The notes: generated by a model from the letters alone, not told the origin. DNA of 33,325 nucleotides from Planctomycetaceae bacterium (GCA_019237095.1 JAFAHT010000263.1:1-33325), one strand, 5' to 3'. Counted from the stretch's first letter, positions 4,943-21,166 are shown. A program made the numbers and translations.

Positions 4943-6301
4943 TCAGAGCGTCTTGAGGTATTCGACCACGGCCATTCGCTCTTCTTCGGTCAGCCTGTCT
5001 CCGAAGGTGTGCCCGCGGTTGCCCCGGCCCGGCTGCGTGGTGTCATAGACCTTGCGGCGGTCGATTGCGGGGAGGCTGGGATCGGGGGCGTTTGGCAGCG
5101 TCTGGAACTTCAGCCCCACCCTGCGTTGGTCGTACTCCAGGGCATCGCCGCGGAAGCTACGGGTGAAGATTCGGGGGCGCTCGCTAGATTTGAGAACATG
5201 ATAAATTGTCGGCACCGAACCGTTGTGAAGGTAAGGTGCGGTCGCCCAGATGCCGTCGAGCGGAGGGGCCTGATAGCCGCCGCCGCCCAGGCCATGATAG
5301 GGCTCTCCCGCGGGACCGTGCTCGCGGGCGAACCAGCTCTCGAGGTAATGCGCCACACCTTCCGGGGCGAAGGCGTGCGCCAGGGTGGCATCGGTGCCGA
5401 TCACCTCGAGTGGTACGAGCTTGTTGGGGTAGCGGTCTTCGGCGCCGTAGGAGCCGTGGCACCGAACGCAGGTGTGCTCGAAGATGGCCTTGCCCTGCTC
5501 AGCCAGGGCCCGATCGATCGCGTAAGGATAGCGTGGAGGCTCCAGGCTTAGCAGATAGGCGCGGATATCGGCGAACTCTGGCTCGCGCTCCTTGATCGAC
5601 TCCGCGCTGTTGCCGAGAATCAAGAGAAAAGGCATGAGCGTGCGGACCGACCGGCTGTCGGCGACACCCAGATGGTAGATCGTCTTCTTTTTCCTGAAAT
5701 GCCACCACGCGGGAACGTCCTCGCAAAGGTTCTCGCAGAGCGGATACTTGACCGGTAACCGGTGCCTCAGCTCCGCATCGCGAAACTGCATCAGGTAGAC
5801 CGCGAAGTTCGAGGCCTCGCTGGTGCCGCGAGCATTGCAAAGGGGCAGCGGCATGATCGGATCGAGCCCGTCGGCCGCGGCTAGCTCCTCGTAGAGCGAT
5901 TGCATGTCGAGCGCCGAGTTGCCCAGGCCGATGATCGTCTGGCCGGCGACGGTCCCGGCGTGACAGAGCAGACAATCGTTACCAAGCCCCTGGCCCAGCC
6001 CCAGGAGTCCGCGTGGCCGGGTGAACCCCATCGGCAATCCGCCGTTTTCGTAAAGAGGAGGGTGCAGCCCGTAGCGTGCGCGGAAGGCCCGGTCGTAATC
6101 GGCGGGCTTTTTGGCAAGCCCCCATCGCTTCCACGCCTCCTGATAAGCGCGCAGCGACCAGAACGGAGGGTTGAGCGGCTTGCGCACCGATTCTCGCCCG
6201 CGTTCCGCCGCCGGGACATTGACGGGGTGGTGCTCGCCCGCCGCCACCAGGCCGAGCGCCGCCACGATCATGAGGATTTCGCCCATGATCCGGTCACACA
6301 T
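4943..6301 (-). CDS. secreted di-haem cytochrome c, peroxidase-like
   Basis: The protein is 452 residues with a short N-terminal hydrophobic segment (MGEILMIVAALGLVAAG) that should direct export. It has two c-type haem motifs, CLLCH at 110-114 and CVRCH at 278-282. The second half has the signature APPLDGIWATAPYLHNGSVPT, typical of the di-haem cytochrome c peroxidase/MauG superfamily and of the many planctomycete cytochromes of this kind. The role is likely periplasmic electron transfer or oxidation of a small molecule; the substrate cannot be read from sequence. ATG 6301 is preferred over an upstream in-frame TTG at 6310 because GGGAGGG precedes it at about nine bases. The gene is monocistronic and divergent from the receiver gene across a 425-base gap with an IS relic. 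The signal peptide is short, so a membrane anchor is possible. Confidence 0.85.
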   Translation of the reverse strand: MCDRIMGEILMIVAALGLVAAGEHHPVNVPAAERGRESVRKPLNPPFWSLRAYQEAWKRWGLAKKPADYDRAFRARYGLHPPLYENGGLPMGFTRPRGLLGLGQGLGNDCLLCHAGTVAGQTIIGLGNSALDMQSLYEELAAADGLDPIMPLPLCNARGTSEASNFAVYLMQFRDAELRHRLPVKYPLCENLCEDVPAWWHFRKKKTIYHLGVADSRSVRTLMPFLLILGNSAESIKEREPEFADIRAYLLSLEPPRYPYAIDRALAEQGKAIFEHTCVRCHGSYGAEDRYPNKLVPLEVIGTDATLAHAFAPEGVAHYLESWFAREHGPAGEPYHGLGGGGYQAPPLDGIWATAPYLHNGSVPTIYHVLKSSERPRIFTRSFRGDALEYDQRRVGLKFQTLPNAPDPSLPAIDRRKVYDTTQPGRGNRGHTFGDRLTEEERMAVVEYLKTL

Positions 6302-6450
6302 CCGGCGCAACCCTCCCGGATACCGCTTCCCCAGCGAGCCTTGAGCCTGTTCTCATTGATTTGATCCTACCGCCGCCGACATGACAAATCCACGGAACCG
6401 ACCAACCGCAGGGTTCGGACAATCTCCTTGGTTCGCTTCAAGCCAGGGCC

Positions 6451-6726: not shown

Positions 6727-7368
6727 ATGGGACGGGAAATGATTATAGCGAATTTTGCATGGTTTACGCGAGTTGGCGAACGTGGCGACCACGCACTGGA
6801 CGGGCTCGGCATCTGGCCCTGTCTGACCCGCGGCTTGCTCAAGGTTCAAGACGGCTCGATGACAACCTGCATTGAGGGCCCGGGCGAGAGTAGCGAGTTT
6901 GTACTTCGCCAGCCAGCGGTAGCTGACATCCCGGCACCACCGCGTTCGCCGTCTCCTTCACTTGCGCCCGAGTCCGACTCATTCAAGCCCGCTTACCGTC
7001 GCATCCTGGTGGTCGACGACAACATCGATGCCGCCAGAAGCCTGGCAAAGGTCTTGACGCTGCTTCACGGGCAGAGCGTGGAGGTCGCACTTGACGGCCC
7101 TTCGGCCCTCGAAAAGGCCGAAGCGTTCCGCCCCCAGATCGTCCTCCTGGATATTGGCCTGCCGGGAATGAGTGGTCACGAGGTGGCCGAGCAGTTACGC
7201 CGCAGGCCCTGGTTCAAGGGATGCCTGCTGGTCGCGGTCACCGGCTGGGGTCAAGAAAAGGACCGGGCGACATCACGTGCGGCGGGCTTCGACCACCACC
7301 TCGTCAAGCCATTGAATCAGGCGACGATCCAGAACCTGCTGGATGGCAATCTTCTACCTGATCACTGA
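6727..7368 (+). CDS. response-regulator receiver protein, apparent remnant of a hybrid histidine kinase
   Basis: Residues 91-210 form a CheY-like receiver with the acidic pair D97/D98, phospho-acceptor D142 in LLDIGLPGMSG, T172 and K194 (LVKP). All are intact, so it can in principle be phosphorylated. No DNA-binding or enzymatic output follows. The N-terminal 70 residues still resemble the end of an HATPase domain: GDHALDGLGI matches the usual DRSLDR..GGLGIGL, and EGPGESSEFVLRQPA matches the usual EGPGRGSEFVVRLPL. The G2 glycines are partly lost. The simplest reading is a hybrid kinase cut off at its 5' end, adjacent to an IS630 relic. The start is uncertain (ATG 6727, 6742 or 6859); none has a strong ribosome-binding site. 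It may now act as a free receiver, or be decaying. Confidence 0.75.
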   Translation: MGREMIIANFAWFTRVGERGDHALDGLGIWPCLTRGLLKVQDGSMTTCIEGPGESSEFVLRQPAVADIPAPPRSPSPSLAPESDSFKPAYRRILVVDDNIDAARSLAKVLTLLHGQSVEVALDGPSALEKAEAFRPQIVLLDIGLPGMSGHEVAEQLRRRPWFKGCLLVAVTGWGQEKDRATSRAAGFDHHLVKPLNQATIQNLLDGNLLPDH

Positions 7369-7736: not shown

Positions 7737-8234
7737 GTGAGACAGCGTCGGTTGATGGGTACAATCGTGGATCGCCCAGTCGCTAAAGTCCTGATCTTCG
7801 AGATCGGCGGGCAGCGCTACGGTTTGCCCGCTTCCGACGTCCGGGAGCTTGTGCGCGCGGTAGCGATCCTACCGCTGTCGCTGGAGTCGGCCTTCATCGA
7901 GGGCGTGTTCGACCTGCGCGGCACCGTCGTCCCGGTCGTTGATCTCCGCGCACGGCTTCGTCTTCCATCCAAGGCCGTGGAGCCCTCGGACCACCTGATC
8001 ATCATCGAGGCGGGGGCAGGCGGTCGGCCGCTCGCACTGCGTGTCGATCGAGCCCTTGACCTTGTCGTCCTGGATCCCGCCGCGTCCGAACAGGTCCAGG
8101 AGCTCATGTCTGGCTCGGGCGACGCCATTCTGGTGATGATGATGAGAGTGCCCAATGGGCTCGTGCCCTTGCTCGATCTCCGTTCGCTGATCGCCACGAC
8201 CCGGTCGGCCGCACTTCCCCTGGCCCTCGGGTAG
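7737..8234 (+). CDS. cheW: CheW-type scaffold protein (WspB-like position)
   Basis: A single CheW domain of 165 residues, an SH3-like scaffold that couples chemoreceptors to CheA in cytoplasmic arrays. The pattern VLIFEIGGQRYGLPASDVRELVRA at the start, followed by GVFDLRGTVVPVVDLRARL in the middle, is diagnostic. It is the first gene of a chemosensory operon running to 17019, with CheR 26 bases downstream. In the Wsp system one CheW also precedes the CheR-TPR gene. The start is uncertain: GTG 7737 overlaps the TGA of a nine-codon upstream ORF, while ATG 7755 gives MGTIVDRPVAKV and has no clear ribosome-binding site. Confidence 0.92.
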   Translation: MRQRRLMGTIVDRPVAKVLIFEIGGQRYGLPASDVRELVRAVAILPLSLESAFIEGVFDLRGTVVPVVDLRARLRLPSKAVEPSDHLIIIEAGAGGRPLALRVDRALDLVVLDPAASEQVQELMSGSGDAILVMMMRVPNGLVPLLDLRSLIATTRSAALPLALG

Positions 8235-8260
8235 CGCATAATGGAAAAGGGCGACCGCTC

Positions 8261-9664
8261 ATGACCGTGACCCGGCATGTCTTTGATGAGCTGAGACAAT
8301 GGGTCGGGGCACGTACTGGGCTGACCCTCACGACCGATCGGTGTCCCAGCGTCGAGCTGGTGATCCGCCGCGCCATGGCGCGGACGGGATTGGACGACGA
8401 CGTGCTGGGGTATCGCCGCCTGCTCGAGACCGATGACGCAGCTTTGGACGACCTGCTCGCAGAACTGACCGTCGGTGAAACCTACTTCTTTCGCGAGCCC
8501 TCTCAATTTCAGTTCATTCGACACACGGTCCTGCCCGAGATCCGCCAGCGCAGAGGCCACGATCATGTCCTCCGTGCGTGGTGCGCCGGCTGCGCCTCCG
8601 GGGAAGAGGCCTACTCGCTGGCGATTCTGTTGCTTGAGGAGGGGCTGGTGGGACAGTGCCGTACGCTGGCGACTGATCTGTCGCGAGCGAGCCTGATCAA
8701 AGCACGGCGGGGCACCTATGGCGCCTGGTCGCTCCGCGGCGAGGGCGCCCTTGCGGCCCGCCCCTACCTGCACGGCCATGGCAACCACTACGTCGTCGAT
8801 GAGGTCGTGCGCCGGCTCGTCACTTTCGGCCACCTCAACCTGGCGCTGGACTTCGACTCCGCGTGCGCGACAAGTGTCTGGGGGATGGATTTGATCCTTT
8901 GTCGCAACGTTTTGATCTACTTCGACCCAAAGACGGTCCGGACCGTCGCGCGCCGGCTGTACGAGTCGCTTGCCGGCGGCGGGTGGCTGATCACGGCTTC
9001 CACCGATCCCCCGCTGGCGGGCGAGGCCCCCTTTGAGGTCGTGGCGACGGACCACGGTGTCTTCTACCGAAGCGGGGCATCGTCGGCCTCGCGGCCGATC
9101 GGCCCGGAGTCAGCGCGGCCGGAAATTGCGTGCGCAAGCAGTTCCGCGGCGCAGCGGGACACCGGAGGAACCCCAGCCGGGGCACCGGCGGGGCTCGCCG
9201 GGGGTGACGGCTCCCGCATCGGCGCTCGCGAGCGAGACATCGCCACCGACTGGACCGACACGGCGCTTCGGATTCGCGCGCTGGCTAACCAGGACGTGGC
9301 GGAGGCCGAGCGCGTCTGCGCCGCGGCGACGCAACGGCACCCGCTCTCAAGCGAGCTGCATTACCTGAGGGCCGTGCTTCTGCTGGATCTCGATCGAGAT
9401 GAAGAGGCAATCCAGGCCGCGCGGCGAGCGATCTACCTCGATCGGTCGCTCGCCATCGCCCATCTCACCGTGGCCTCGATCCTCCAGAATCGCGGGGACC
9501 GCGAGGGGGCGTGGCGCGCCTATCGCAATGCGCGCGACCTGTGCCGGGCTCGCCCGGCCGAAGAGATCGTTCCTCTCTCCGACGGCGAACCGGCTGGGCG
9601 GCTACTGGCCGCGGCCGAGACCCAGATGGCGCTGATCGAGGCCGCGAGAAGGAGCCACCGATGA
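8261..9664 (+). CDS. cheR: CheR-type chemoreceptor methyltransferase with C-terminal TPR (WspC-like)
   Basis: Residues 1-275 form a CheR domain, which methylates receptor glutamates using S-adenosyl-methionine. Visible motifs are TYFFREP (74-80), the SAM-binding WCAGCASGEEAYS (107-119) and DLILCRNVLIYFD (210-222). A low-complexity Ala/Gly/Pro-rich linker of about 55 residues follows. Residues about 330-440 look like tetratricopeptide repeats (for example LSSELHYLRAVLLLDLDRDE). CheR-TPR fusions are typical of Wsp-type and other alternative-function chemosensory systems; the TPR may recruit the enzyme to receptors or kinases. ATG 8261 has GGAAAAGGG upstream. The stop overlaps the next start (ATGA at 9661-9664), so translation is coupled to the second cheW. 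Confidence 0.92.
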   Translation: MTVTRHVFDELRQWVGARTGLTLTTDRCPSVELVIRRAMARTGLDDDVLGYRRLLETDDAALDDLLAELTVGETYFFREPSQFQFIRHTVLPEIRQRRGHDHVLRAWCAGCASGEEAYSLAILLLEEGLVGQCRTLATDLSRASLIKARRGTYGAWSLRGEGALAARPYLHGHGNHYVVDEVVRRLVTFGHLNLALDFDSACATSVWGMDLILCRNVLIYFDPKTVRTVARRLYESLAGGGWLITASTDPPLAGEAPFEVVATDHGVFYRSGASSASRPIGPESARPEIACASSSAAQRDTGGTPAGAPAGLAGGDGSRIGARERDIATDWTDTALRIRALANQDVAEAERVCAAATQRHPLSSELHYLRAVLLLDLDRDEEAIQAARRAIYLDRSLAIAHLTVASILQNRGDREGAWRAYRNARDLCRARPAEEIVPLSDGEPAGRLLAAAETQMALIEAARRSHR

Positions 9665-10290
9665 GTTTGATCCGCCGTCGAACCGGTCCGATCACGGATC
9701 GGCGGACGATTCGCGAACGCCTCGCACGGGCCGTGAACTTGATTTGCGAGGAGCATTCGACCCCCGATCAGGCCAGGGCCGTGCTGGAGGAGCGAGCCCG
9801 CGCGCTGGCGCGCGTCCCTGTCCAGCCGCCCCCCACCTCGCTGGTGCTCGATGTCGTGACCTTCGCGCTGGCCAACGAAGACTACGCGATCGAACTGGGC
9901 TATGTCCACAAGATCGTGCCGTTGATCGAATTGACACCGGTTCCCGGGGCCCCCGACTTCTTCGTCGGCGTCATCAACCTCCGCGGCGAGATCCTCCCCA
10001 TTGTCGACCTTCACAGGCTCTTCGGGATGGCTCGCACCGGCTGGACCGGCCAGTCCTGGGCGATCGTCCTCGGCGGCGAGCGCAACGAATTCGCCCTGCT
10101 GGCGGATAAGGTCCATGAAGTGATAACCTTGCGCACCGACCAGATGCTCGACTGGCAGGGATCGGCCACGGGCGTCGGCCGGCAATTTGTGCGCGGCGTG
10201 ACCGAGGGCGCCTTGATCGTGCTTGACGGCGCCGCCCTCCTCCAAGACGATCGCCTCTTCATTGACCAGGGCGATGGCGCAGGCGTCTGA
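9661..10290 (+). CDS. cheW: second CheW-type scaffold with N-terminal extension (WspD-like)
   Basis: A CheW domain (residues about 62-205) contains [22 protein letters not shown] and [20 protein letters not shown], the latter being the classical CheW core. An Arg-rich, helical N-terminal extension of about 60 residues precedes it, as in WspD. The start ATG 9661 overlaps the CheR stop by four bases and has GAAGGAG just upstream. A longer in-frame ORF beginning at 9511 lies antiphase inside cheR and is rejected. Having two CheW proteins on either side of CheR is the arrangement seen in Wsp operons. Each may couple a different array component, or the two may form a composite baseplate ring. Confidence 0.92.
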
Positions 10291-10306
10291 ACCTGGGGGG
10301 ATCCCG

Positions 10307-12013
10307 ATGGCCAAATCGTCGACTTCAAAGAAACCGGTGGTTAGCGCGACGTCCCCGAACAAGAACCCGTCTCCGAGGAGACGCAAGGGCGGCGACAAGG
10401 TGTTCAGGCGGAACGACGAGCGCTACCGCCTGTTCGTGGAGAGCGTCAAGGACTATGCGATCATGATGCTCGACCCCACCGGACACGTCCTCAGTTGGAA
10501 CCCCGGGGCAGAGCTATTGAAGGGGTACCATGCCGACGAGATCATCGGCAAGCACTTCTCGATCTTCTACCCGCGTGAAGACGTGGAGCACGGCAAGCCC
10601 GAGATGGAATTAAGGGTGGCGACGAATGAGAGCCGGTTTGAGGACGAGGGTTGGCGGGTGCGCAAGGATGGCTCTCGGTTCTGGGCCAACGTCGTCACCA
10701 CCGCTCTCCACAAGGATGCCGGAGTGCTCATAGGCTTTGCCAAGGTGATCCGCGACATGACCGAGCGAAGAGCGGGCGAGGATGCCCGCCGGGAGGCCGA
10801 GGAGCGGATGCGTTCGGTCGTCAACCATATCATTGACGGGATCATTACCATCGACGAGCGGGGGATCGTCGAATCGTTCAACCCGGCCGCCGAGAAGATC
10901 TTCGGCCACCCGTCTGTCAACGTCGTGGGCCGCAACGTCAAGATGCTTATGCCCGAGCCCTACCATAGCGAGCACGACGGCTATCTCACGAACTATTTGC
11001 GCACCCACCAGCCAAAGATCATCGGCATCGGCCGCGAGGTCGAGGGCTTGCGGAGCGATGGCTCGACCTTCCCCATGGAGCTCGCCGTCAGCGAATTTAA
11101 CCTCGCGGGGCGCCGCTTCTTCACCGGCATCGTTCGCGATATCACCCAGCGCAAGCAGTTGGAGGTCGAGAGGGCCAGGTATGTCGAGAACGTCAGCGAG
11201 GCGGTGTCTCGCCTGGCGTCCACCAGCACGGAGATTCTCGCAATCGCCCAGCAGCAGGCTGCCGGCGCCCAGGAGCAGGCGAGCGCCGTCGCCCAGACCG
11301 TGACCACCGTCGACCAGGTTGCTCAGACCGCCGCGCAGGCAGCGCAGCGAGCCAAGGGTGTCGGCGAGGCCGTTTCGCGCACCCAGGAGATCGGCCAGCG
11401 GGGCCGGCAGGCCGTCGACGACTCGATCGCCGCCCTGGAAAAACTCCAGGAACAGGTGGAGTCAACCGCCGAAAGCATCCTGATGTTGGCCGAACAAGCT
11501 CAGGCCATTGGCGAGATCATCGCCACCGTGAATGACATTGCCGAGCAAACCAACCTGCTCGCACTCAACGCCGCCATCGAGGCCTCCCGCGCCGGCGAGT
11601 ATGGGCGGGGCTTCACGGTGCTGGCCGGAGAGGTCAAGGCGTTGGCCAGCCAGAGCAAGAAGGCGACCACTCAGGTGCGGCAGATCCTGGGCGAGATCCA
11701 GAAGGCGACGAACACTGCGGTCTTGTCCACCGAAGAGGTGACCAAAGGAGTCAGCGTGACGACCGCGGTGGCGAGCCAGGCGGGCGGGACCATCAAGACC
11801 TTGACCGAGACCCTGACGGAGACGGCGCAGGCGGCGACGCAGATCATGGCATCGGCCGGCCAGCAGGCCACTGGAATGTCCCAGATTCATCAGGCGATGA
11901 AGAACCTCGACCAGGTGGCGCGACAGAATCTCGTGGCGATTCGCCAGGTCGAACAGGCGGCCCTGAGCTTGACCGCGCTCGGCAACCAACTCACCAGTCT
12001 CACACGGTCCTGA
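10307..12013 (+). CDS. soluble methyl-accepting chemoreceptor with two PAS domains, the second FixL-like
   Basis: The product is 568 residues with no transmembrane segment or HAMP, so it is cytoplasmic. PAS1 spans about 36-153. PAS2 spans about 163-281. The coiled-coil signalling domain spans about 290-568, with the receptor hairpin tip [19 protein letters not shown] at 413-431. PAS2 closely resembles the haem PAS of rhizobial Fix[14 protein letters not shown] then [12 protein letters not shown]. By my alignment H223 falls on the FixL haem-ligating His (H200 in B. japonicum) and R243 on the O2-contacting Arg (R220), whereas FixL R206 and H214 are Asn and Lys here. I infer possible haem-based O2 or NO sensing; this is not proven. 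ATG 10307 follows GGGGGG at six-base spacing. The C-terminus lacks the CheR-binding pentapeptide, which fits use of a TPR-linked CheR. Confidence 0.93.
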
Positions 12014-12026
12014 GAGGTCCGACGCC

Positions 12027-12566
12027 GTGGATAAGGCCAAGCTCATCACGCGGTTGATGAACACATTCCTCGACGAGCTCCAGGAGCACGTGCGCGTGCT
12101 GAACCGCGAGTCGCTGGCCCTGGAGAAAAACCCGGCCGAGGCCGAGCGGGCGAGGCGGCTCCAAGAGCTTCTCCGGACGGCGCATAGCCTGAAGGGAGCC
12201 GCGCGCTCGGTGGATATCTCGCTCATCGAGGATGCCTGCCACGGGCTCGAAGACCTGCTGGCCGGGGTACGGGACAATCGGGTGGCGTTCGATTCCGAGT
12301 TGTTTTCGCTGCTGTTTGCGACGGCCGACAGTCTTGAGGAGGCGGGATGCGCCTGCGGGAGCAGCGGGACCTCGCCGACTCGCCGCTCGGCGCGTTGCTG
12401 CCACGGCTCGAGGCCGCCGCGGGAATTCCTGCACTCCGGCCCTTCGAGCCGGCGCCGCGCCCTCTTGACGCAGGCGTTCCGCTTGCCGGTCGGGATGCAG
12501 GCGAGATGCCGGCGCCACAACGGCCGGCTCCCCAAAAGGCCGGCGAACTGCCGACGGTCCGCTTGA
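12027..12566 (+). CDS. cheA: CheA N-terminal Hpt (P1) part, frameshifted from the kinase
   Basis: Residues 1-107 form the CheA P1 phosphotransfer domain. The phosphorylated histidine is H53 in RTAHSLKGAARSV, followed by DACHGLEDLLAG. After about position 12345 this frame turns into an improbable Cys/Arg/Ser-rich tail up to the stop at 12566. The rest of CheA continues in the -1 frame from 12347. The GTG start at 12027 has GAGAGGT upstream and follows the receptor stop by 13 bases. If one base is missing near the GGG at 12344-12346, this and the next entry are one protein of about 817 residues. Otherwise it is a separate Hpt protein with a junk tail. Confidence 0.75.
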   Translation: MDKAKLITRLMNTFLDELQEHVRVLNRESLALEKNPAEAERARRLQELLRTAHSLKGAARSVDISLIEDACHGLEDLLAGVRDNRVAFDSELFSLLFATADSLEEAGCACGSSGTSPTRRSARCCHGSRPPREFLHSGPSSRRRALLTQAFRLPVGMQARCRRHNGRLPKRPANCRRSA

Positions 12567-14479
12567 CTCCGCCCGCGGAGCGCTCCGAGAGCGGCGGTGT
12601 CGTGCGACCAGGTGACCGCCCGCCCGAGCCGTCGGTGCAGCCCTCCGGGGCTTCGCGTCAGCCGCCGCCCGCCGCCCTGGCCCAACTGCCTCGCCCGGCG
12701 ATCGCGGGCTTCGTGCGCGTCCCGGCCGATAAGTTGGATGCACTCCTTACGTACAGCGGTGAGCTGCTCGTAGCACGGCGTCGAGTGGAGTCTCGGACGA
12801 GCGAGCTGGAGGCGATCCGCGAGTTCGTGGGGCGCTGGAAGACGGAACGGCGCCGTTTCGACAGGGCGCTGAGAACGCTCAAGCGGGCTGAGAACGGCGG
12901 TCGGAGCGGCCTACCCTCGAAAGCCGGGACCGGCGACGGGAGGTTGTTGCCCCGCCCCGCGGCGGTCGTGCTTGGTCAGATCGACGACAATCTGCGCCGC
13001 CTCGAGAAGGACCTGGAGCGTTTTGCCATGGTCCTGACGAGCGACGGCCGCCAGCTCGACCAGGTTGCCGACCTCCTCGACGACGCGGTGCGACGGCTGC
13101 GGATGCTGCCGTTCGCCGAGGCCTGCCAGGGCCTCGACCGGTTGGTGCGCGACCTGGCCCGGGCGAGCGGCAAAGAGGTCGTCCTTTTGGTCGAGGGGGG
13201 CCAGGTCGAGCTGGACCGGTCGATCCTCGAGGGTTTGCGAGACCCGCTGTACCATCTGGTCTGCAACGCCGTGGATCATGGCATCGAGACGCCCGACCAA
13301 CGCCAGGCCGCCGGCAAGCCCGCCCAGGGGCGGATCACGCTGAGGGCCGCGCTCCGCGGCACGCAGGTCGAAGTGGTGGTCGCGGACGACGGTCGGGGCC
13401 TCGACCTGGAGGCCGTGCGCCAGCAGGTGCGCCAGCAGGGGCTCGGCGAGCCCACCGACGAACGAGACCTGGTGTCTTGTATCTTCCTGCCCGGGTTCTC
13501 CACGGCCTCGCTGATCACCAGCGTCTCCGGCCGCGGGGTGGGGCTCGACGTGGTCAAAAGCCAGGTCGAATTGCTTCACGGCACCATCGACCTCTCGTTC
13601 ACCGCCGGGCAGGGGACGCGGTTCGCACTGGCTGTCCCCCTGACCCTGACCACCCTGCGGGCGCTCTTGGTCGAGGCAGGGGAGCAGATCTTCGCCTGGG
13701 CGAGCACCAACGTGCAGAGGTTGGTACGCATCGGCCCGCACGACATCCGAATGGTGGGGGGGCGGGAAATGCTCGTTAACGGCAAGTCGCTGTTGCCGAT
13801 GGCCTCACTGGCCGAGACGCTCGGCTTGCCGGCCGCCACGGCCGCCGGCGCGGGCGACAAGCGGCCAGGCCTGATCGTGGCCGCGGCGGAGCGGCGAATG
13901 GCCTTCGTGGTGGATGAGCTGATCGCCGAACAAGAGATCGTGGTCAAGGGCCTGGGGGACCGGATCCGGCGGGTCCGCAACTTTTCGGGAGCGACCATCC
14001 TCCCCTCAGGACGGATCGCGCTGGTCCTGAACGCGGCGGCCTTGATCCGCGCCGCAATGAGCCAGAGCGTCGGCCCGGCGCCGGCGCCCGTGCCGGCCAT
14101 GACGGGTTCGCTCGCGAAGAAGCGGCTGCTCGTGGTCGACGACTCCGTCACCACGCGTTCCCTGGAGAAGAGCATCCTGGAGGCGGCGGGGTACGAGGTT
14201 GTGACCGCGGCCGACGGCGAGGCCGGTTGGAAGCTCCTCCAGGAGCAAGACGTCGATCTCGTGATTACCGACATCGAGATGCCTCGGATGGACGGCTTCG
14301 AGTTGACCGAGGCAATTCGCCGCTCGAAACAGTCCCACGAGCTGCCGGTGATCTTGATCTCCGCGCGGTCCAGTGATCGGGACAAGGCTCGCGGAATTGA
14401 GGTCGGAGCGGACGCCTACATTGTCAAGAGCACCTTCGACCAGAAGGAGTTGCTCGAGGCCCTCGGGCAACTCCTCTAA
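12347..14479 (+). CDS. cheA: CheA histidine kinase core with C-terminal receiver (WspE-like)
   Basis: Without its P1 domain (previous entry) this frame encodes, in order: a Pro/Ala-rich linker; the P3 dimerisation helices starting FVRVPADKLDALLTYSGEL; the P4 ATPase with N box HLVCNAVDHGIETPDQR, G1 VADDGRGLD and G2 SGRGVGLDVVKSQV; a P5 CheW-like domain; and a receiver near residues 590-710 with LLVVDDS and TDIEMPRMDGFE. CheA fused to a receiver is typical of Wsp (WspE) and Frz-like systems, where the receiver acts as output or phosphate sink. Frame 2 has a TGA at 12335-12337, so it can only begin after that point. ATG 12347 has GAGGAGGCGGG just upstream, so internal initiation is possible, but a one-base loss in a G run is simpler. 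CheB follows 15 bases later. Confidence 0.88.
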   Translation: MRLREQRDLADSPLGALLPRLEAAAGIPALRPFEPAPRPLDAGVPLAGRDAGEMPAPQRPAPQKAGELPTVRLTPPAERSESGGVVRPGDRPPEPSVQPSGASRQPPPAALAQLPRPAIAGFVRVPADKLDALLTYSGELLVARRRVESRTSELEAIREFVGRWKTERRRFDRALRTLKRAENGGRSGLPSKAGTGDGRLLPRPAAVVLGQIDDNLRRLEKDLERFAMVLTSDGRQLDQVADLLDDAVRRLRMLPFAEACQGLDRLVRDLARASGKEVVLLVEGGQVELDRSILEGLRDPLYHLVCNAVDHGIETPDQRQAAGKPAQGRITLRAALRGTQVEVVVADDGRGLDLEAVRQQVRQQGLGEPTDERDLVSCIFLPGFSTASLITSVSGRGVGLDVVKSQVELLHGTIDLSFTAGQGTRFALAVPLTLTTLRALLVEAGEQIFAWASTNVQRLVRIGPHDIRMVGGREMLVNGKSLLPMASLAETLGLPAATAAGAGDKRPGLIVAAAERRMAFVVDELIAEQEIVVKGLGDRIRRVRNFSGATILPSGRIALVLNAAALIRAAMSQSVGPAPAPVPAMTGSLAKKRLLVVDDSVTTRSLEKSILEAAGYEVVTAADGEAGWKLLQEQDVDLVITDIEMPRMDGFELTEAIRRSKQSHELPVILISARSSDRDKARGIEVGADAYIVKSTFDQKELLEALGQLL

Positions 14480-14494
14480 AGGACAGGGGGAGCC

Positions 14495-15544
14495 ATGATC
14501 CGCGTCCTCGTTGTCGACGATTCGGCGACGGCCCGTACCCTGCTGACGTCGATCCTGGTCGCCGACCCCGCGATCCAGGTCGTCGGCGAGGCAAGGGACG
14601 GCCTCGAGGCGATCGCGCTGACGCAAAAGCTCCGACCCGACCTGGTCACCATGGACCTGCACATGCCCCGGTTGGATGGCCTGGAGGCGACCAAGGAGAT
14701 CATGATCACGGTGCCGACGCCGATCGTGATCGTCACCGGGACCACGCGTACCCGCGAGGTCAAGGATTCGCTTGACACCCTGCGGGTGGGCGCACTGGAG
14801 GTGGTAGTAAAACCTCCCGGGCCCAGGTCGCCCGGCTTCGTGGCGGCGGCCCAGCACCTGGTGGCGACCGTCAAAGCCCTGTCCCAGGTCAAGGTTGTGC
14901 GTCACTGGCGTCCCCCTTCCGTCCAGCCCGCCGGGCGGTCGACGCGGGCCCTCGTGCCCCCGGGCGCCGCCCGCAAGCGGATCGTGGCCATCGCGGCCTC
15001 CACCGGGGGACCGGCGGCGCTGCGGTTCCTGCTCTCCGGCCTCCCCGGCGATTTCGCCCTGCCGATCCTGATGGTCCAGCACATCACACCGGGCTTCGTC
15101 TCGGGGCTCGCGTCGTGGCTGGATTCCTCGAGCCCGCTCCGCGTGAAGCTGGCCGAACAAGGGGAGCCGCTCACCCCACGCACCGTCTTTCTCTCGCCCG
15201 ATCACCGTCACCTGGGCGCCTCCGGGCACGGGACGGTGGCGCTGTCGTCGTCACCCCCGATCGGCGGCTTTCGACCCTCGGGGACCTTTCTGTTCGAGTC
15301 GGTCGGCCGCGCCTTCGGCGCCGGGGCCGTGGCCGTGATCCTGACCGGAATGGGCGACGACGGCGTCGAGGGATTGCGGATGATCCGCCGGACGGGCGGC
15401 CAAGTCATCGCCCAGGATGAGACGACCTCGGTCATCTTCGGAATGCCCGGTGCCGCCATCGCGGCGGGCCTGGTCGATCTGGTCCAGCCGCTCCCGGCCA
15501 TCACTCAATACTTGGCCGCGCTCGGCGGTAGCGGCATTTCCTGA
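14495..15544 (+). CDS. cheB: CheB chemoreceptor methylesterase/deamidase (WspF-like)
   Basis: An N-terminal receiver (residues 1-125: D8/D9, phospho-acceptor D54, K106) is joined by a short Pro-rich linker to the CheB methylesterase domain (about 160-345). The Ser-His-Asp catalytic residues are visible: S169 in ASTGG, H196 in VQHITPGF and an Asp in TGMGDDG (288-289). It removes methyl groups from receptor glutamates when phosphorylated by CheA, opposing the CheR at 8261. ATG 14495 is preceded by GGGGGAG. The 17-base gap to the next gene, with TAGGAG, places both in the same operon. In Wsp the equivalent WspF sits directly before the output protein WspR. Confidence 0.95.
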   Translation: MIRVLVVDDSATARTLLTSILVADPAIQVVGEARDGLEAIALTQKLRPDLVTMDLHMPRLDGLEATKEIMITVPTPIVIVTGTTRTREVKDSLDTLRVGALEVVVKPPGPRSPGFVAAAQHLVATVKALSQVKVVRHWRPPSVQPAGRSTRALVPPGAARKRIVAIAASTGGPAALRFLLSGLPGDFALPILMVQHITPGFVSGLASWLDSSSPLRVKLAEQGEPLTPRTVFLSPDHRHLGASGHGTVALSSSPPIGGFRPSGTFLFESVGRAFGAGAVAVILTGMGDDGVEGLRMIRRTGGQVIAQDETTSVIFGMPGAAIAAGLVDLVQPLPAITQYLAALGGSGIS

Positions 15545-15561
15545 GTCGGTAGGAGCCAACC

Positions 15562-17019
15562 ATGCCTCGCGTGCTCATCGTCGAAGACAGCCCTACCCAG
15601 GCCCAACAACTCGCCCTGATCCTCGAGGATGCGCGCTTCGAGGTGGCGATCGCCCCCGACGCCGAGCGCGGCTTCGAGCTCCTCACCAATGACCGATTCG
15701 ATCTCGTGCTCAGCGATCTCCTGCTCCCCGGGGACAGCGGCTTCGACCTCTGCAAACGGATCAAGGCGGACCCCCGCCTCCGCCGCATCCCGGTGGTGGT
15801 CTGCACCAGCCAGGCCGAGCCCTTCAACGTCCTGCGCGGCCTTCAGGCCGGGGCCGATGGCTTCATCACCAAGAATCGCGATCCGGAGGAGATCGCCGGC
15901 TGCGTCCACCGGGCGCTGGCCCGGCCGCCGACCACCGAGTCCACCACTCCGATCTCGGTCGTCTTCCTGGGCCAGGAGTTCCGGCTGCCGGCGGGAAGGG
16001 AGCAACTCCTGGATATCCTCGCATCGGCCTTCGAGGACGTGGTCCACCTCAATGCTCAGTATCAGACCAGCCTGCGACAATTGGGTGAGCGCAACCGCCA
16101 GTTGCAGGCGCTCGCGGACTCGGAGCGACAGGCTCACGAGGAGTTGAAGCGAGCTCACGAGGAGTTGAAGCGAGCCGAGAGCCAGTTGGTCCAAGCCGAG
16201 AAACTCTCGTCCCTGGGCCGGATGGTGGCTGGAGTCGCCCACGAGATCAATAATCCCCTGGCGTTCGTCGTCAACAATGTCGCCGTCCTGCGGCGCGACC
16301 TCGGTCACGTAATCGAGCTGCTTCACCTCTACCGCCAGGCCGACTCGATTCTGGCCGAGCACGATCCCGCTCTGCTCGAGCGTGTCGACGCGGCCGCTGC
16401 CGAGGGCGACTTGGCCTACGTCCTGGAGAACCTGGGGAGCCTCGTTGACCGCTCCGGCGAGGGGTTGAAACGGATTCAGCGGATTATCCTCGATCTCCGC
16501 AACTTCGCCCGCCTGGACGAGTCCGAGCGCAAGGAAGTGGACTTGAACGAAGGGATCAGAACCACGGCCTTCCTGATCGACGGGCGAGCGAAGGCGCAGG
16601 GAGTGGAGCTGGTGTTGGACTTCACTCCCTTGAAGCCGGTGACGTGTTATCCGGCCCAGATCAACCAGGTTGTGCTCAACCTTCTGAACAACGCCCTCGA
16701 CGCCTGCCCCGACGGGGGAAAGGTGACCGTCGGCACCCGACTCACCCCGCGTGAGGTCGAGATCCACGTCGTCGACACCGGCCCGGGAATCGAGCCGTCG
16801 ATCCGCGATAAGATCTTCGACCCGTTTTTCACAACCAAGCCGGTCGGTAGTGGGACGGGGCTGGGGCTGTCGATCAGCTACGGGATCGTCCAGGCACACG
16901 GGGGCCGGATCGACCTCGACTCGTCTCCCGGCCGCGGGGCTCATTTTATCGTCCGCCTGCCCCAGGATTTCCCACCGGGCGGGGCCGGTTCCGACGAGTC
17001 GTCGAGCGCCGGCCTTTGA
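15562..17019 (+). CDS. receiver-histidine kinase, predicted output of the chemosensory operon
   Basis: Residues 1-120 are a receiver (E8/D9, phospho-acceptor D52 in [12 protein letters not shown]104). A coiled coil at about 160-215 leads to a HisKA/HATPase kinase with H227 in [14 protein letters not shown] box [16 protein letters not shown]1 [10 protein letters not shown] box IFDPFFTT and G2 GSGTGLGLS. The receiver-first order means an upstream kinase, presumably CheA, could control this kinase. It occupies the place where Wsp operons encode the diguanylate cyclase WspR. Its own target is not in the operon; the NtrC-type regulator at 19263-20690 is the nearest candidate. The coiled coil contains a perfect tandem duplication of a seven-residue unit, [10 protein letters not shown] 15562 has TAGGAG at eight bases. 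Confidence 0.93.
16132..16173 (+). repeat. perfect tandem 21-bp repeat (two copies) inside the kinase gene
   Basis: Positions 16132-16152 and 16153-16173 are identical and each encodes AHEELKR, one heptad of the coiled coil linking receiver and kinase. Identical codons point to a recent duplication. Adding or losing a unit keeps both the frame and the heptad register. Confidence 0.9.
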
Positions 17020-19262: not shown

Positions 19263-20690
19263 TTATTCCGCGGCCATTGCAAATCGCTTGCGGTCGCGCA
19301 TCGACGGCTTGAAGTCGCTCTTGTCGATCTGATAGCGACGGAGCTTCTCACTGATGCTCCGGCGCGACAGGCCGCAATGCAAGGCGCAGCGGTCGATCCG
19401 TCCCCGGTATTTCTCCAGCACCCGGATCAGGTAGGCGCGCTCGATGCGCCGGATGAACTCGTCGGTCAGGTCCTGAAGAGGCCGGTTGTGGTCGAAGTCG
19501 AGGCTGAACGGCTCCTCGCGCAGCGGCACGATTTGGGGAGGAAGGTTGTCCGGCTCGATCACCGGCCCTGGGGTCGTGACGACCGCCTGCTCGATGATGT
19601 GCTCGAGCTCGCGGACATTACCCGGCCAGTCGTAGCGGAGCATTCGTGACAGTGTTTCCCGGGCCACACTCTTGGCAGGCAAGCCGCGCTCCATCAGCTT
19701 GTCGAGGAAGTGGTTCACCAGGAGGGGCACGTCCTCAAGCCGCTCACGCAGCGGCGGAAGGTCGATCGACACGACGTTCAGCCGGTAGTACAGGTCCTCA
19801 CGGAACCGGTTTTCGGCGACAGCTTGGGCGAGGTTCAGGTTCGTGGCGGCGATCACCCGGCAATCAGCCTTGATCGGCTCGCCACCGCCGACCCGCTCGA
19901 AGCGTTGATCCTGGAGCACCCGCAGGAGCTTGGCCTGCATGCCCAGAGGCAAGTCGCCGATCTCGTCGAGAAAGAGCGTCCCGCCGTTGGCGAGCTCGAA
20001 CCGGCCTTTTTTTTGCCGATCAGCACCCGTGAACGCCCCCCGCTCGTGCCCGAACAGCTCGCTCTCCATCAGGTGCTCGGGAAGCGCCGCGCAGTTGACG
20101 ATCTCGAGCTTGCCGCTCCGCGTGACATCGCTGAAGTGGATGGCCTGGGCGACCAGCTCCTTGCCGGTCCCGGTCTCGCCGGTGACCAGAACCGTGCATT
20201 TCGACGAGGCGACCCGCTCAACCCGGGCGAATACCTCCATCATCCGGCGGCTGCGGCCCAGCAAGTTATGGTAGGCGTTCCGCCGGCGAAGCCGGTTCCG
20301 CAGGTCGGCGACTTCGTCAACCAGGCGGCGATCCTCCAGGGCCTTGTGGACGAGCAACTCCAGCCGCAGGGTGTCGATCGGCTTCTGGATGAAGTCGTAG
20401 GCGCCCAGCTTCATCGCATCGACAGCCGCCTCCACGGTGGCATAGGCCGTCATGACAATGACTGTGACGGGCAAGTCGCGGTCGCGGATCGCCTGGATCA
20501 GGTCCAGGCCGCTGATACCCGGTAGCCGCAAATCCGTCAGGACCAACGAATACGGACGCTCCACCAGCCACTCCAGCGCGGTCGTGCCCTCATGAGCCAC
20601 GCTGATCTCGCGACCGGGAGTATTCAGCAGTTGTGAAAGCTGCTGCCCGATAAGCTCGCTGTCATCCACCACGAGGATGCGTCGATCCAT
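19263..20690 (-). CDS. NtrC-family sigma-54-dependent response regulator
   Basis: The 475-residue product has the classical three-part layout. The receiver spans 1-120 with D9/D10, phospho-acceptor D53 in LTDLRLPGISG and K103. The AAA+ sigma-54 interaction domain spans about 142-370 with Walker A GETGTGKE (171-178), the GAFTGA loop (218-223) that contacts sigma-54, and Walker B LFLDEIGD (239-246). A C-terminal Fis-type helix-turn-helix follows (CALHCGLSRRSISEKLRRYQI). All key residues are present. ATG 20690 follows GAGGG; the longer frame up to 20942 is non-conserved. No kinase partner is adjacent. The receiver-kinase at 15562-17019 is the nearest candidate, and a sigma-54-like promoter lies at 17095. 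Confidence 0.95.
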   Translation of the reverse strand: MDRRILVVDDSELIGQQLSQLLNTPGREISVAHEGTTALEWLVERPYSLVLTDLRLPGISGLDLIQAIRDRDLPVTVIVMTAYATVEAAVDAMKLGAYDFIQKPIDTLRLELLVHKALEDRRLVDEVADLRNRLRRRNAYHNLLGRSRRMMEVFARVERVASSKCTVLVTGETGTGKELVAQAIHFSDVTRSGKLEIVNCAALPEHLMESELFGHERGAFTGADRQKKGRFELANGGTLFLDEIGDLPLGMQAKLLRVLQDQRFERVGGGEPIKADCRVIAATNLNLAQAVAENRFREDLYYRLNVVSIDLPPLRERLEDVPLLVNHFLDKLMERGLPAKSVARETLSRMLRYDWPGNVRELEHIIEQAVVTTPGPVIEPDNLPPQIVPLREEPFSLDFDHNRPLQDLTDEFIRRIERAYLIRVLEKYRGRIDRCALHCGLSRRSISEKLRRYQIDKSDFKPSMRDRKRFAMAAE

Positions 20691-21166
20691 GGCGCCCTCA
20701 TCCAGGTTGAGGTGGGTGGGCACGACCCTGGGTCCAACTTCGATTGAGCGACCGCAGTCCAAAGAGTCCTGCTCAGAAGTCCATTTTCTCAATCGTGCTA
20801 GCCTACGGAGAATTCTCTGGCTGTCAAGCCGGATCGCGCTCTTTGCCCTGATCCAAGCTGGTGGCGCTCTCAAAGAGGCGAGCCAAGACATGCGGCCCGA
20901 CTCGTTCACTGGCCATGCGCGCAGGCGTGCGTGCAGTCCCAACTCGGTATGGACTTGGCGGCCGATTCGCTGTCAACTTGGCGCGCCGCGAACGAAGCTT
21001 CGGGCTGAACGATTTGAGCCGGGCGGACGGAATGCCGATGAGGATGAGTACGATGGAAGGGATTGCGCTCGTTCTGCCGGCGCTGCCGGCCGATCGAGTG
21101 CGTCAGTCGTGGAGCGTTGTGACGTAGGTTTCCGGGTAGCCTGCACTGGCGATTAAGGAGAGGCTC
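20691..21166. other. intergenic region between divergent regulator and secreted thioredoxin-fold gene
   Basis: These 476 bases carry no believable gene. Besides the minus-strand promoter at 20800-20827, the plus strand has TTGGCGGCCGATTCGC at 20955-20970. It keeps the GG-N10-GC of sigma-54 promoters but misses several flanking consensus bases, and it lies almost 200 bases from ATG 21167. It is a weak candidate only. Confidence 0.4.
20800..20827 (-). promoter_or_regulatory. promoter candidate with internal palindrome upstream of the NtrC-type regulator
   Basis: On the minus strand a perfect -35 TTGACA (20827-20822) is followed after 16 bases by TAGGCT (20805-20800), a weak -10. The spacer holds a perfect ten-base palindrome GAGAATTCTC (20808-20817), placed where a repressor would block RNA polymerase. 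The regulator start is 110 bases downstream. Confidence 0.4.

Follow-up and report, generated by a model that had tools for sequence, protein, structure and literature searches.

This locus raises the question of what a chemosensory (che) operon controls when the gene following CheB encodes a receiver-histidine kinase and not a GGDEF protein. The window (the whole analysed stretch of 33,325 nucleotides) is contig C596 of a draft genome (5.6 Mb, 603 contigs, 92% complete), whose family we infer to be Isosphaeraceae. We know of no use for the che genes of this family. Described Isosphaeraceae have no swarmer cells, though several of them carry che genes (PMC5352709). An initial interpretation, further referred to as the sequence-only reading, described the operon as Wsp-like, with CheA passing phosphate into a second two-component step. 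We assign a probability of roughly 0.7 to the following reading: the operon encodes an alternative cellular function (ACF) chemosensory pathway of non-flagellated Isosphaeraceae, in which CheA acts on the receiver of a second sensor kinase.

The Pfam domain scan identified a seven-gene che set at positions 7737–17019, all on the + strand and in the order given by the sequence-only reading, with genes separated by about 13–26 bases or overlapping by 4 bases. The seven-gene order is repeated in another genome of the family (G013), and thus the layout is not a matter of chance. The features are as follows (Pfam E-values in parentheses).

7737..8234, + strand: first CheW, starting at GTG 7737 or ATG 7755 (CheW, 1.3e-23); 66% identity to G013
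8261..9664, + strand: CheR methyltransferase with a short C-terminal TPR (CheR, 5.6e-40; TPR_16, 1.3e-5, below the curated cut-off)
9661..10290, + strand: second CheW, with an ATGA overlap with CheR (CheW, 1.4e-28); start read from the sequence
about 10307..12013, + strand: chemoreceptor PAS-PAS-MCPsignal (two PAS; MCPsignal, 9.7e-37)
12027..12345, + strand: N-terminal part of CheA, Hpt with the phosphoacceptor His, frame 0 (Hpt, 6e-14); 75% identity to residues 1–108 of the G013 CheA
12347..14479, + strand: dimerisation, kinase, CheW and C-terminal receiver domains of CheA, in another frame (H-kinase_dim, HATPase_c, CheW, Response_reg)
14495..15544, + strand: CheB, receiver and methylesterase (CheB_methylest, 2.3e-54; Response_reg, 2.1e-20)
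15562..17019, + strand: output protein, receiver and HisKA/HATPase histidine kinase (Pfam), with acceptor D52 and H227

The true starts of the second CheW (ATG 9661) and of the receptor (about 10307) differ from the longest-ORF starts. No transmembrane segment was found in the receptor (the highest 19-residue hydropathy is 1.21), in agreement with the claim of a soluble receptor with two PAS domains. Matches from the terminator and promoter scan of the window were no better than chance level. The genes flanking the operon are not conserved, and thus the operon is a self-contained block. No single-domain CheY gene was found within the conserved block. An upstream receiver gene (6727–7368) was considered as the operon's CheY and rejected, as it is not conserved beside the operon in relatives. 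Further upstream, on the − strand (4943–6310), lies a gene whose product carries a RoxA-like cytochrome c domain.

CheA had been taken for a single CheA-REC gene. In this assembly, its Hpt and kinase core lie in different frames because of a one-base deletion at about 12345 (12343..12348). The Hpt ORF spans 12027–12566 in frame 0, its final part (past 12345) being out of frame, and the ORF of the kinase, CheW and receiver domains spans 12347–14479. At the break site the window reads GAGGCGGGATG, and G013 reads GAGGCCGGGATG. The deletion was called against four loci (L119, L120, L121 and L122), each having CheA as a single ORF; the intact genes, from G013, G008, G009 and G023, encode 753–946 aa. 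Since all four orthologues checked are single ORFs, a programmed frameshift was ruled out. A CheW fragment on contig C423, which might have pointed to many base errors in the assembly, is merely cut by the contig end. The dN/dS values between the window and G013 are 0.26 and 0.35 for the two halves of CheA, indicating purifying selection on both; given this similar constraint, the break either arose recently by mutation or is an error of the assembly. It is quite improbable that the frameshift reflects a decaying pathway, with the operon non-functional, or a CheA working in two pieces, with Hpt as a protein of its own. The deletion itself and the position of ATG 12347 just downstream of a purine-rich stretch would fit such a split, and separate Hpt genes adjoining CheA are a known arrangement (PMC10542144). 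However, all other genes of the operon are open, both halves of CheA are constrained, none of the four orthologues is split, and a base error is possible in a draft of 603 contigs.

The class of the system was assessed from the tree of CheA cores (53 rows). The window CheA belongs to a 14-row clade (support 97/98) together with planctomycete operons and Sinorhizobium pSymA. CheAs of E. coli and other flagellar systems (F), as well as type IV pilus (Tfp) CheAs, are placed elsewhere, the latter forming their own clade; the assignment to F or Tfp rests on CheA size and domain content for all but E. coli. Holding the window clade together with flagellar CheAs was rejected (p-AU 0.015, the groups having been named after the tree was seen). 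The AU tests covered the F and Wsp groupings, and the separation from Tfp is that of tree placement. FliM was not found in the host genome, which is 92% complete. The operon also shows features of the ACF class: CheR with a TPR (the match is below the curated cut-off; a TPR is also present in the G013 orthologue), a multidomain regulator with REC, HisKA and HATPase domains, and a CheA outside the flagellar and Tfp classes. Taxis by flagella or type IV pili, in favor of which stands the presence of the core Che proteins, is highly improbable: apart from the FliM search and the trees, the output is a multidomain protein and not a CheY. The proposal of an alternative-function, non-flagellar system is in agreement with these results, including the prediction that CheA would fall outside the flagellar class.

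The label "Wsp-like" holds for gene content only. The Wsp operon of Stagnimonas (L230) shares with the window CheW, CheR, CheA-REC and CheB followed by a gene with a receiver and an output domain. However, its output is REC-GGDEF and its membrane CHASE8-HAMP receptor comes first, whereas in the window the output is a kinase and the soluble receptor is encoded by the fourth gene. In the best tree, the Stagnimonas CheA falls into a different clade (100/100), together with cyanobacterial operons and the second CheA of the host genome itself, encoded on contig C400. Holding the window and Wsp clades together was not rejected (p-AU 0.077), and so a true Wsp system in which a kinase replaced GGDEF deserves consideration, though we regard such descent as unlikely given the best tree, the gene order and the receptor type. 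In its favor, the gene content matches, and in Nostoc carneum (L227) and Calothrix rhizosoleniae (L073), whose CheAs belong to the Wsp clade, CheB is likewise directly followed by a REC-HisKA-HATPase protein (459–479 aa). The receivers of the latter proteins group with WspR; this, along with the placement of their CheAs, indicates that the layout with CheB followed by a receiver-kinase probably arose separately.

Conservation of the operon was studied in 45 genomes of the family. CheA orthologues with more than 55% identity were found in G013 (77%), G023 (59%), G008 (59%) and G009 (56%), and full-length orthologues of the receiver-kinase in G013 (82%), G009 (65%), G008 (64%), G037 and G038 (59% each). 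In total, a CheA orthologue is present in 5 genomes, the receiver-kinase in 6, and both in 4 (hypergeometric probability 5e-4, uncorrected for kinship). The whole seven-gene operon was found also in G013 and G008, with the receiver-kinase directly after CheB. In G009, only the end of the operon is seen, as the contig stops inside the receptor gene; here a gene for a receiver-class III cyclase stands between CheB and the receiver-kinase. In G023, CheB is not followed by a kinase gene in the operon; a receiver-cyclase (70% receiver identity) is encoded on another contig. The kinase thus keeps its place at the operon end, beside CheB or one gene later, in G013, G008 and G009. In G037 (Singulisphaera) and G038, the receiver-kinase (L140, 8843–10297; L141, 9473–10909) adjoins a large hybrid kinase that contains two receivers, and no orthologous CheA was found in the search of the 45 genomes. 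Receptor type varies: it is soluble PAS-PAS in G013, as in the window, and membrane-bound with HAMP in G008 and G023. Among the window–G013 pairs, the receiver-kinase is the most conserved (82% identity, dN/dS 0.20), the values for CheW, CheR and the receptor being 0.40–0.49. Distant receiver-kinases all keep residues D9, D52, K104 and H227.

We then considered the slot following CheB across the class. CheB was searched for in 398 genomes, the regions were retrieved, and their domains were scanned. The scanned planctomycete operons share the core CheW-CheR-CheW-receptor-CheA-CheB with varied receiver-headed proteins behind it. None of the inspected planctomycete operons of the window's clade has a GGDEF protein after CheB. 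The other architectures found in this slot are listed below.

G259, and G294 with an additional GAF: REC-PAS-kinase-REC-REC-Hpt (domain scan)
G148, G338, G379, G129 and G393: REC-HATPase_c_2, an RsbW-like ATPase (Pfam)
G234: REC-RsbW-like ATPase, assigned by placement in the receiver tree; this genome also has a hybrid kinase
G093: REC-REC-Hpt (domain scan)
G010 and G025: kinase-REC proteins (domain scan)
G187, G098, G203 and G179, more distant operons: REC-REC-kinase types (domain scan)
G240: no receiver gene detected after CheB (domain scan)

In the tree of receiver domains, the receivers of the window, G013, G008, both the kinase and the cyclase of G009, the cyclase of G023, and the proteins of G037, G038, G259 and G294 form one clade (100/98), standing apart from the receivers of CheA and CheB and from WspR. 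This clade carries three outputs, kinase, class III cyclase and PAS-kinase-REC-REC-Hpt, mostly encoded just after CheB; the receiver is thus the conserved interface, and the output behind it is swapped. On balance, we lean towards a generalization of this pattern: in these planctomycetes one receiver family would be the fixed partner of a chemosensory CheA, with the enzyme behind it exchanged (histidine kinase, class III nucleotide cyclase or PAS-hybrid kinase with Hpt) and the CheA-CheB core staying. In G009 (L142, 12626–15277), a receiver-class III nucleotide cyclase and a receiver-kinase are encoded in tandem directly after CheB. As their receivers are closely related, one CheA array may drive two outputs at once. 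That relatives keep one receiver in the slot after CheB while the attached enzyme changes is the less familiar part of the system, and, together with the G009 tandem, the part most worth pursuing. As constructs, the sister operons form a natural set for studying the choice of receiver by a CheA and the way in which receiver control of a kinase differs from that of a cyclase.

A CheA acting on the receiver of a second kinase in an alternative-function system is probably the right scheme for the operon, but this layout is already known from other bacteria. A survey of 2012 found HisKA and HATPase in about 40% of the response regulators of CheR-TPR clusters, which like the window combine CheR-TPR with a multidomain regulator, so that a kinase output is not unusual; mononucleotidyl cyclases were catalogued as well (PMC3447774). 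The CheR-TPR clusters of that survey came from Chloroflexi, Cyanobacteria and Proteobacteria, and "Planctomyc" is absent from its main text (PMC3447774). The operon adds a planctomycete member and brings non-flagellated Isosphaeraceae into the range of kinase-output chemosensory systems. The closest parallel is Che3 of Rhodospirillum centenum, compared by its published description, with an Azospirillum plasmid cluster (L144) as the nearest sequence stand-in. Like the window, it has two CheWs, CheR, one receptor, CheA with a C-terminal receiver, CheB and a second kinase with an N-terminal receiver in one cluster. There, CheA3 transfers phosphate to REC1, a receiver of the kinase CheS3; this inhibits the kinase, and the phosphate goes no further, in what is the only tested precedent (PMC3868531). 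The view that the window CheA passes phosphate into a second step was therefore too strong, although a second two-component step is retained. The two systems differ in that CheS3 is a REC-REC-PAS-HWE kinase with a cluster-encoded partner, CheY3, whereas the window kinase is of the HisKA type with a single REC and no PAS, and the operon has no linked CheY. The parallel proposed earlier, Che3 of Myxococcus xanthus, is likewise of the alternative-function type and targets a two-component pair. According to the summary in PMC3868531, it works as a phosphatase of CrdA, a DNA-binding regulator, the membrane kinase CrdS being a separate protein, and that summary describes no receiver-kinase intermediate; R. 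centenum is closer.

We propose the following pathway. With CheR-TPR and CheB tuning it, the cytoplasmic PAS-PAS receptor would set the activity of CheA via the two CheWs. CheA most likely phosphorylates D52 in the receiver of the last gene product, the C-terminal receiver of CheA itself probably being a phosphate sink. The AlphaFold model of the receiver-kinase (6 sequences, mean pLDDT 77.5, pTM 0.44) predicts a receiver, a beta hairpin and one helix (residues 146–261) running through the H-box into the kinase, a geometry that would suit signal passing from receiver to kinase. Through this long continuous helix, the receiver may raise or lower autophosphorylation of the attached kinase at H227, and the pathway would thus end in an ordinary pair of a kinase and a response regulator, the latter encoded away from the operon. 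The NtrC-type sigma-54 activator with a receiver encoded in the window (19263–20942, − strand) was rejected as the partner of the kinase: its orthologues are present in 39 of the 45 family genomes, most of which have no operon, and it is linked to none of the sister operons.

Four observations count against CheA acting on the receiver-kinase: the kinase of G037 and G038 without the orthologous CheA, the operon of G023 without the kinase, the broken frame of CheA, and the lack of a linked regulator. The first of them shows that the receiver can have another partner. It could be served by another kinase partner, or the protein's own kinase domain could load its receiver or those of CheB or CheA, the gene residing in the operon for shared expression. 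We consider such an arrangement doubtful. The receiver-kinase is tightly linked to CheB in the operon clade and shows the highest conservation in the operon; its slot is elsewhere occupied by cyclase or hybrid proteins with a receiver of the same clade; and in the R. centenum precedent the direction is from CheA3 to the CheS3 receiver. Of the outcomes named in the sequence-only reading as contrary to its proposal, one is observed in part, the kinase of G037 and G038 occurring without this CheA; no GGDEF gene follows CheB in the inspected planctomycete operons of the clade. CheA acting on the receiver of the second kinase stays our preferred reading.

Two further types of proteins were observed after CheB. 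In related planctomycete operons (L176, L180, L181, L182 and L184), a receiver is fused to the RsbW-like HATPase_c_2 domain, which suggests that a partner-switching (anti-sigma-like) output is under chemosensory control. In che operons of the Wsp clade from the planctomycete G023 (L135) and the cyanobacterium Argonema (L229), CheB is followed by a receiver-SpoIIE phosphatase.
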